64,000 bases of DNA. It comes from Mariniphaga sp. (GTDB lineage: Bacteria > Bacteroidota > Bacteroidia > Bacteroidales > Prolixibacteraceae). The DNA is taken from contig JAHYIT010000003.1 in NCBI GenBank assembly GCA_019429205.1, positions 22,891 to 86,890 of the forward strand, given 5' to 3'. Made by a program: the position numbers and the translations under genes. Of the stretch, positions 13,461-48,320 are shown piece after piece; position 1 is the stretch's first letter; each line of letters starts with the position of its first letter. Below the pieces are notes generated by a model, which saw nothing but the letters and a program-made list of their open reading frames with translations, did no database searches and was not told the DNA's origin.

Positions 13461-14063
13461 TCATTTCCAAAATTCAAACATTTTTCCTTTTGCACCGAAA
13501 ACAGGATCATTTTTTGGCAGCGAAACCCGGGAAATGTTTTGTTTCGCTTTTTCCATCTCAGGGTCTTTTCCGTAATTCATATCCCAGTTCTGGCCGTCGG
13601 GATAGGCGCCAACCACGGCAAATCCGTCGCCGGAATCGATGCGTTTGTGAGAAGTGCCGGCAGGTAAAACCACCAAATCACCCTTTTCAATTTTAACCGG
13701 ATCGTTTTCCGGTCCTCCCAGTTGAACAACTGCCCAGCCCGAATAAACACCAAGTGCTTCATGCGCGGTTGAATGGTAATGCTGAAAATTGTAAATGCCA
13801 TTTCGCCACGAGCCACCCCAATTGTTTTGTGATAAAATTCTTTCAATTTCTGAAGCCGGATCGGAACCTGAAAAATCAAATACACTTTTATAGAGCAAAA
13901 CCGGCAAATCCGGATTGTTGGGAAAATTCCCGTTTTCAGAAAGAAGTAAAGTTTTTATTTCTGCTGATGGATTAATTTGTGCATGCATATCATAAACAAT
14001 TATTATTAAAACAGCGAATAAAACGTTTCTTAATTTCATTTCATTAAAAATTACATGAGCCAA
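13461..14063 (-). CDS. Cupin domain protein (YjlB-like), possibly exported
   Basis: YHSTAHEALGVYSGWAVVQLGG...GDLVVLPAGTSHKRI; hydrophobic N-terminus. Confidence 0.75.
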   Translation of the reverse strand: MAHVIFNEMKLRNVLFAVLIIIVYDMHAQINPSAEIKTLLLSENGNFPNNPDLPVLLYKSVFDFSGSDPASEIERILSQNNWGGSWRNGIYNFQHYHSTAHEALGVYSGWAVVQLGGPENDPVKIEKGDLVVLPAGTSHKRIDSGDGFAVVGAYPDGQNWDMNYGKDPEMEKAKQNISRVSLPKNDPVFGAKGKMFEFWK

Positions 14064-14114
14064 AATTTACAACAAGTTAAGGATACTTTTTGTTATTTTT
14101 GGCGACTTTAAAAT

Positions 14115-14263
14115 GGTCAATATCCAATGTTCAATAATGAATTTTTAATCAAAAAACGAAGTAATATATAACTTGAAAATAGGATATTGAATATTCGTTA
14201 TTGGTTATTCTCTAAAAAGAATCAAAATTTCCAAGATCCAATACTCAATATTGAATATCCAAA
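14115..14263. repeat. AT-rich repeat units (left flank of the four-helix-bundle gene)
   Basis: Units such as TCAATATCCAATGTTCAATAATGAAT, inverted unit GGATATTGAATATTCGTTATTGGTTATTC, and TTTCCAAGATCCAATACTCAATATTGAATATCCAAAT. Confidence 0.75.
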
Positions 14264-14302
14264 TGAAAGAAAGATAATAACTTATCATTAAAATTTAAAT
14301 TT

Positions 14303-14659
14303 ATGGAAAGAAAATATGATTTGGAAGAACGGCTAATTGATTTTGTTCTTCAAATTGATGAAATTATAGAACAGTTACCTAACACAAGACTTGCAAATCA
14401 CATTGCAGGACAACTGGTTAGAAGTGGTACTTCTCCTGCACTAAACTACGGAGAAGCACAATCTGCAGAATCTCAAAAAGATTTTGTGCATAAAATGCAG
14501 GTAATTTTAAAAGAATTGAGGGAAACAAGAATATGTCTGAAAATTATTATCAGAAAACCCCTGCTTGAAAACCATGTTGTAATGCCAGTGCTGGTTGAAA
14601 ATGAAGAATTAATTGCCATATTTGCCAAAAGTGTAAAAACAGCAAAATTGAAATTATAA
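14303..14659 (+). CDS. Four-helix-bundle protein (IVS / S23-like family)
   Basis: 118 aa; LIDFVLQIDEIIEQLPNTRLANHIAGQLVRSGTSPALNYGEAQSAES is diagnostic. Confidence 0.9.
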   Translation: MERKYDLEERLIDFVLQIDEIIEQLPNTRLANHIAGQLVRSGTSPALNYGEAQSAESQKDFVHKMQVILKELRETRICLKIIIRKPLLENHVVMPVLVENEELIAIFAKSVKTAKLKL

Positions 14660-14667
14660 TAATGGGA

Positions 14668-14825
14668 AATTTCCAATATCCAATGTTCAATATTGAATAT
14701 CCAAATAAAAACCAAAGTACGTTCCGTTTTGATTATTGGATATTGAGTATTCAATATTGGTTATTTCTTATGAAAATTAAGAATAGCCAATTTCCAATGT
14801 TCAATAAAGAATATTCAAATAAAAA
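14668..14825. repeat. AT-rich repeat units (right flank of the four-helix-bundle gene)
   Basis: AAATTTCCAATATCCAATGTTCAATATTGAATATCCAAATAAAA, inverted ATTATTGGATATTGAGTATTCAATATTGGTTATTTCTT, and CCAATTTCCAATGTTCAATAAAGAATATTCAAATAAAA. Confidence 0.85.
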
Positions 14826-47970: not shown

Positions 47971-48059
47971 AACAAATCACAAAAAATAAATAATCAAATA
48001 ACAAAAAATCAAACAAATCTCAAACTTATCAAACCTTTCAAACCTTCAAACTCTTCGAA

Positions 48060-48320
48060 CAATGTCGAACCATTTCAAACTCTTCGAACAACGTCGAACC
48101 ATTTCAAACTCTTCGAACAACGTCGAACCATTTCAAACTCTTCGAACAATGTCGAACCATTTCAAACTCTTCGAACAACGTCGAACAATTTCGAACTCTT
48201 CGAACAACGTCGAACCATTTCAAACTCTTCGAACAACGTCGAACAATTTCGAACTCTTCGAACAACGTCGAACCATTTCAAACTCTTCGAACAACGTCGA
48301 ACAATTTCAAACCATTTTAT
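48060..48320. repeat. 29-bp minisatellite, about 9 units
   Basis: CAACGTCGAACCATTTCAAACTCTTCGAA with units at 48060, 48089, 48118, 48147, 48176 and onward. Confidence 0.92.

Follow-up and report, generated by a model that had tools for sequence, protein, structure and literature searches.

A PF05635 gene enclosed by inverted heptamer arrays in a Bacteroidota genome and its likeness to rRNA intervening sequences

The window gene and its flanking arrays

The window, a 64,000-nucleotide stretch (contig C56:22891-86890 of a 5.1-Mb Bacteroidota draft genome, labelled G000), carries at 14303-14659 on the plus strand a gene for a 118-amino-acid protein that matches PF05635 (23S_rRNA_IVP/S23/Avd-like four-helix bundle) in Pfam with 44.0 bits against a cut-off of 33.8 (E = 2.9e-11). 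Genes of this type are best known from inserts interrupting bacterial rRNA. The window copy lies not inside an rRNA gene but between two protein-coding genes, and a string search detected no 23S marker sequence in any of the loci retrieved. Upstream is a divergent gene with a cupin domain (13461-14063, minus strand; start codon uncertain, Cupin_2 match below the curated cut-off), and downstream is an undecaprenyl-phosphate translocase-like gene of family PF04018 (14828-15760, plus strand; assigned by Pfam and by synteny in the relatives G008, G052 and G029). The gene with its repeats, here called the cassette, thus occupies the 5′ leader of the PF04018 gene and is co-directional with this neighbour only, which places it among the few PF05635 loci that have a divergent upstream gene. 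Just 5′ of the cassette, at 14084-14104 on the plus strand, lies a leader-like segment, TACTTTTTGTTATTTTTGGCG, which may act as a promoter; a leader alignment places a similar sequence 5′ of the PF04018 gene in two relatives, in one of which the site is empty.

Structure prediction with AlphaFold2 from six aligned sequences gave four helices with a pLDDT of 94, compared with 47 for the poor model obtained from the single sequence. The nearest solved structures are 2RLD (TM 0.84, E = 9e-11) and 2GSC (TM approximately 0.8), each with five chains, followed by Avd (4DWL, TM 0.73-0.75) and the ribonucleoprotein of a diversity-generating retroelement (8UB7). The initial annotation, made from the sequence of the window, had proposed an IVS/S23-like four-helix bundle with an Avd-like fold, and both proposals are upheld by the profile match and the predicted structure.

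Six related units surround the gene, three on each side and alternating in orientation, as first described; their order is F-R-F, gene, F-R-F, with a macro-period of 114 bp on each side. Repeat and period analysis placed the left units at 14112-14150 (F1, plus strand), 14176-14212 (R1, inverted, minus strand) and 14225-14264 (F2, plus strand), and on the right a unit at 14668-14706 (F3, plus strand), which starts near 14670 and corresponds to the consensus of the initial annotation. Repeat search and folding located the inverted unit R3 at 14727-14769 (minus strand), and 5 nt separate the last unit, F4 (14784-14822, plus strand), from the start codon of the PF04018 gene. The repeats are real, but their basic unit is approximately 7 bp and not the 39-mer first proposed: each unit is a run of degenerate heptamers, such as TCCAATA TCCAATG TTCAATA TTGAATA TCCAAAT. 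Matches at lags of 7, 14 and 21 nt in the flanks reach 0.52, 0.44 and 0.41 over a background of approximately 0.29, and a scan of the whole window placed its top three 7-bp-periodic segments at this locus. Allowing up to three mismatches, the core sequence occurs five times at the locus and, as one weak match, once elsewhere in the genome, so that the 39-mer is private to the locus and the dispersed repeat family that a genome-wide search might have found was not recovered.

Compared with shuffled sequences, the predicted folds of the right block (z = -4.66) and of the whole cassette (z = -4.44) are unusually stable, whereas the left block by itself gives no significant excess of stability (z = -0.89). 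In the predicted whole-cassette fold, F1 pairs with R3 and the stem closes over the gene; R3 could alternatively form a hairpin with F3.

A separate array in the window, at 48010-48320, is built on TCGAACAACGTCGAACCATTTCAAACTCT with periods of approximately 10 and 29 nt; it contains no PF05635 gene, and the genes on its two sides encode a NUDIX protein and a release-factor-3-like GTPase. It has a TCGAAC motif in common with the flanks of another PF05635 gene (L004), and a 92-amino-acid ORF within it is an artefact of the repeat.

Heptamer arrays and operon position of PF05635 genes

The genome encodes 11 PF05635 genes, and reading of their flanks revealed repeats at all of them, in keeping with the suggestion in the initial annotation that gene and repeats form a dispersed cassette. 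Each gene has its own repeat sequence, mostly with a 7-bp period: TTGCAGG TTGCAGG TTTCAGG TTACAAG precedes the gene at one locus (L008) and its inverse follows, and AAAGTTT stands before and AACTTTA after the gene at another (L005). Two loci depart from this period, L006 being fitted better by 8 and L004 by 10.

To quantify this architecture, the 300 bp upstream of the gene were compared with the 300 bp downstream at 113 loci drawn from the family and from a collection of genome contigs. Inverted similarity exceeded z = 3 at 60 of the 113 loci (53%) and direct similarity at 12 (11%), and a lag of 7 scored highest in 61 of the upstream flanks and 66 of the downstream ones. Among 353 small to medium control ORFs, taken from unselected 20-kb stretches of genomes that contain PF05635 and still including about ten PF05635 genes, 7.4% passed the inverted and 7% the direct test, and PF05635 genes topped a blind ranking of these ORFs by inverted flanks. 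A lag-7 score of at least 0.55 on both flanks was reached by 33% of PF05635 loci, 2% of control ORFs and, in two genomes that lack the family, 0% of ORFs. The arrays are matched within a cassette rather than shared as one repeat family, contrary to what had first been supposed: the mean inverted score between upstream and downstream arrays was 16.9 within a locus and 10.1 between loci. Folding predicted 32.6 pairs between the flanks, closing a stem over the gene, against 18.9 when the flanks were shuffled (controls, 13.2 against 13.9), so that terminal inverted repeats around the ORF emerge from both flank comparison and predicted folding. Because the loci are not independent, the tests were also run with one locus per site, which gave 58% inverted, 74% with a 7-bp array in one or both flanks and an excess of flank pairing with p = 8e-6. 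Roughly half of the loci do not pass the inverted test, either because they have decayed or because their period is a different one (8 or 10).

Because the thresholds had been chosen after the first loci were seen, they were fixed on that set and applied to 26 held-out loci from a phylum-wide sample. Here, 12 of the 26 loci were inverted, lag 7 was best in 30 of 52 flanks, 14 loci had a lag-7 score of 0.55 or more in one or both flanks, and 22 had co-directional neighbours. PF05635 was present in 75 of the 99 Bacteroidota genomes sampled. Beyond this phylum, all 11 cyanobacterial loci, a sample of plasmid loci, have heptamer arrays (GGGAGTA, AAAGCTA, GGTGACA and GGGTGTA among them), with inverted z > 3 in eight. 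The flank tests are passed as well by loci from Ignavibacteriota (L124), Poribacteria (L168) and Clostridia (L174), but not by three further PF05635 loci (L155, L161 and L167).

The genes lie mostly inside operons, in sense with the host transcript. Both neighbours are co-directional at 115 of 125 PF05635 loci (92%) compared with 131 of 248 small control genes (53%), or at 64 of 73 with one locus per site (p = 2e-8); the median distance is 58 nt to the upstream neighbour and 46 nt to the downstream one. The occupied joints include sdhA|sdhB, leuC|leuD, korD|korA, hydB|hydA and an efflux operon, and further mutA|mutB, fadJ|fadA and a metH-like joint, these names being assigned from protein sequences. 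At hydB|hydA, a relative has TGA-C-ATG, with a 1-nt gap, where this genome has TGA-cassette-ATG. Some cassettes on cyanobacterial plasmids lie in CRISPR-Cas operons (cas6|cas4 and cas10|cmr3; L239, L241 and L245), and in three other cyanobacterial plasmid copies both adjacent genes run antisense to the PF05635 gene. Neither this sense insertion inside operons nor the 7-bp period was part of the initial annotation, nor was the match with rRNA intervening sequences considered below.

We also surveyed 7-bp arrays irrespective of the gene, measuring repeat density on 20-kb stretches. There were 24 arrays in 383 kb of this genome and 25 in 200 kb of G039, in stretches picked partly for their PF05635 genes, although most of the counted arrays lie away from those genes. 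In two genomes, 12 of 34 arrays lie no more than 500 bp from a PF05635 gene, although such regions make up approximately 3% of the sample; the repeats are thus not equally common away from the gene. The remaining approximately two-thirds lie farther off, and those of them that were read are for the most part arrays without a gene. No 7-bp arrays occurred in 200 kb from each of two related genomes that lack PF05635.

Several individual elements were noted during this survey. Gene-less inverted pairs of 7-bp arrays occur at an operon joint before a nuoE-like gene (L061, 8877-9037) and at an nqrA|nqrB-like joint in G039 (L091, 8337-8483), and on contig C179 of this genome an inverted heptamer pair surrounds an internally deleted PF05635 gene in a hydrogenase/nuoE-like operon (L062, 15744-15948); the gene-less pairs and the deleted gene look like decay products. 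Near-repeats approximately 330 bp apart, with 7-bp arrays, lie 3′ of two PF05635 genes in G039 (L090, 14331-17463). A distinct element of approximately 190 bp, with terminal repeats TATACTAAAAACGGGATAAA and TTTATCCCGTGCGAAGTATA and internal GCCAACTG-type repeats, was found at two places (L054, 7240-7400; L060, 16390-16560) and looks like a MITE. Genomes without PF05635 (G042 and G011; L067-L086) have an excess of 11-bp-periodic segments.

Occupied, decayed and empty sites

The window site differs between relatives: G008 has an intact gene with a greatly expanded array, G052 retains a decayed 3′ tail of the gene without repeats, and in G029 the site is empty, with no cassette scar beyond the level of shuffled sequences (236 of 500). 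Six other sites of this genome have no orthologous PF05635 gene in three relatives of the genus, and the five of them that were examined there are empty or hold short array scars. Across 30 genomes of the family, leuC|leuD is occupied in eight, always by an L010-like gene of the same PF05635 subfamily, and empty in 22; sdhA|sdhB is occupied in three and empty in 27. At the latter joint this genome has an intact cassette, and reading by eye found a truncated PF05635 start (MHKFKGLKVNYLRK) in G004 (L332) and, in G010 (L335), an inverted heptamer pair without a gene. Presence, decay and absence therefore occur at one and the same joint. The sdhA|sdhB and leuC|leuD cassettes are not unique recent gains, since other genera of the family carry them as well.

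A FastTree protein tree, which is weakly resolved (125 columns), required 14 site changes against 35 with shuffled labels, and the clustering of site labels argues for long persistence at a site. Pure vertical descent is nonetheless rejected: the least possible number of changes is 7, and starred branches force two or three arrivals at some joints. The same joint is held by different PF05635 clades, and one pair of close relatives occupies two joints, a Mucilaginibacter gene at sdhA|sdhB grouping with one from Pedobacter at fadJ|fadA. The mobility suspected in the initial annotation is supported only in part and indirectly, by the shared joints and this pair, and many sites are old; on the best reading, loss of a cassette is frequent and movement occasional. 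At non-orthologous sites, closer proteins hardly have more similar arrays, judged on few close pairs, which led us to reject a heptamer that is carried unchanged to new sites. The pN/pS ratio of same-site gene pairs is 0.07-0.21, a range that indicates purifying selection and, therefore, a functional protein.

Comparison with known elements and possible origins

The closest parallel is the intervening sequence (IVS) of 23S rRNA with an S23p/IVP ORF, known from Coxiella and Leptospira, which has in common with the cassettes the protein family, the sense orientation of the ORF and a stem of terminal inverted repeats. In the Coxiella IVS, RNase III cleaves a terminal stem of 28 bp, and GACAGAT heptamers in tandem, variable in number between strains, precede the S23p start (PMC4990558), so that heptamers beside the ORF are a further likeness. 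The window cassette differs in lying in an mRNA unit, in having heptamer arrays at both ends and in bearing a gene under purifying selection, and its excision is conjectural. As the proteins of the operon cassettes are under purifying selection, whereas the Coxiella protein appears not to be made, a function for the host or the element beyond that of a neutral insert is suggested.

The arrays also resemble the STRR heptamers of cyanobacteria and the TAACTGA repeats of Beggiatoaceae, which, in the portions of the sources consulted (PMC4679880, PMC4692102), are tandem, intergenic and of many sequences; those portions make no link between heptamer repeats and PF05635. Tandem 7-bp repeats of this kind are present at the window, in degenerate form, and at the cyanobacterial PF05635 loci, where, in distinction from the published repeats, inverted pairs enclose the gene. 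Avd shares the fold of the window protein; however, neither a reverse transcriptase nor a template/variable repeat was noticed at the window locus, the only RVT_1 match of the genome lies on contig C26, and PF05635 copy number does not correlate with reverse transcriptases, so that a link with them was rejected. REP/REPIN-RAYT systems likewise combine a single gene with short palindromes in the intergenic DNA around it, and have gene-less derivatives, but their protein is unrelated, and the cassettes have 7-bp arrays, private sequences and a sense bias in operons.

Taken together, these observations make it somewhat probable, in our judgement, that the locus is a free-standing cassette of the IVS type inserted in an mRNA transcription unit, whose arrays pair so that the cassette is cut out. 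What was observed directly is the arrangement of gene and arrays, its repeated occurrence between cistrons of core operons in several phyla, and the sense orientation. By analogy with rRNA, the arrays would pair in the transcript into a stem, and RNase III would cut this stem, removing or isolating the cassette and leaving the neighbouring cistrons undamaged; the Avd-like protein may bind the RNA or DNA of the arrays and promote maintenance or rare spread, and gene-less array pairs may be decayed or miniature derivatives. Such an element could tolerate any transcript in which a cut is harmless, be it at the tips of rRNA loops, at intercistronic joints or in leaders. On the other side, the sense orientation could merely reflect the need of the gene for a host promoter, the stems at the window are degenerate and AT-rich, a significant inverted match is lacking at approximately half of the loci, and some two-thirds of the 7-bp arrays in two sampled genomes lie beyond 500 bp from any PF05635 gene.

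A miniature mobile element acting at the level of DNA, in parallel with REP/REPIN elements, whose arrays would fold into hairpins in single-stranded DNA and serve as the ends for transposition, and which would be moved by the PF05635 protein or in trans by a transposase such as Y1/RAYT, accounts for the inverted ends, the gene-less miniature pairs, the presence/absence polymorphism and the independent arrivals at the same joints. PF05635 copy number correlates with that of Y1 (IS200/RAYT-type) genes across 60 genomes of the family (rho = 0.61, or 0.50 with genome size held), a lead and not evidence of mobilization. Yet no Y1 gene with REP palindromes lies at the window locus, and Y1/RAYT genes were rejected as heptamer carriers, since in the same genomes they are flanked by REPs and very few of 38 flanks (19 genes) reach the lag-7 score. 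The inverted ends are private to each cassette, with no end sequence common to all; no target-site duplication was noticed in the empty-site comparisons, which were made without statistics; the 92% sense orientation finds no explanation at the DNA level; and the same joints have stayed occupied through long divergence. We consider this reading unlikely. A regulator kept by the host, in which the protein binds the arrays as DNA or RNA and tunes the neighbouring cistrons, would fit the strong purifying selection at fixed sites, the recurrence of the same core-metabolism joints and the private sequence matched on both sides of each cassette. Decay is frequent, however, the functions of the neighbouring genes are unrelated, and most relatives have empty joints and therefore do not need the cassette, all of which makes this reading improbable.

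Polymerase slippage, to which the excess of bacterial heptamers has been ascribed (Mrazek 2007, as cited in the consulted portions of PMC4679880 and PMC4692102), could generate 7-bp arrays with which PF05635 is merely associated, and array length does differ between orthologs. It does not, though, produce two arrays that are inverted copies of each other at a distance of 350-600 bp, and the absence of arrays from genomes without PF05635 and their strong specificity for this family leave it very little probability. That the AT-rich flanks are no more than chance low complexity around an ordinary gene is scarcely credible and is refuted by the flank shuffles, which preserve dinucleotides, by the ranking of control ORFs and by the specificity for a 7-bp period in the window scan; the heptamers of cyanobacteria and Gemmatimonadota are, moreover, richer in GC.

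Extending the IVS-type reading beyond this locus, we tentatively propose that such cassettes are intervening sequences of mRNA found across phyla, which would insert in sense at operon joints, be excised from polycistronic mRNA by RNase III and spread rarely with the aid of the Avd-like protein, and which would include rRNA IVSs and many cyanobacterial STRRs as special cases or as remnants; this wider scheme is conceivable but on balance doubtful. We found no link between rRNA inserts, PF05635 and heptamer arrays in the open-access literature that we searched, and a description elsewhere is possible. ORF-bearing rRNA inserts and intergenic heptamer repeats, unexplained for decades, seem to belong to a single element. 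In that case, the rRNA inserts would be the minority case of an element that lives mostly in mRNA operons, and its function could be tested in culturable Flavobacterium, Chryseobacterium or Nostoc.
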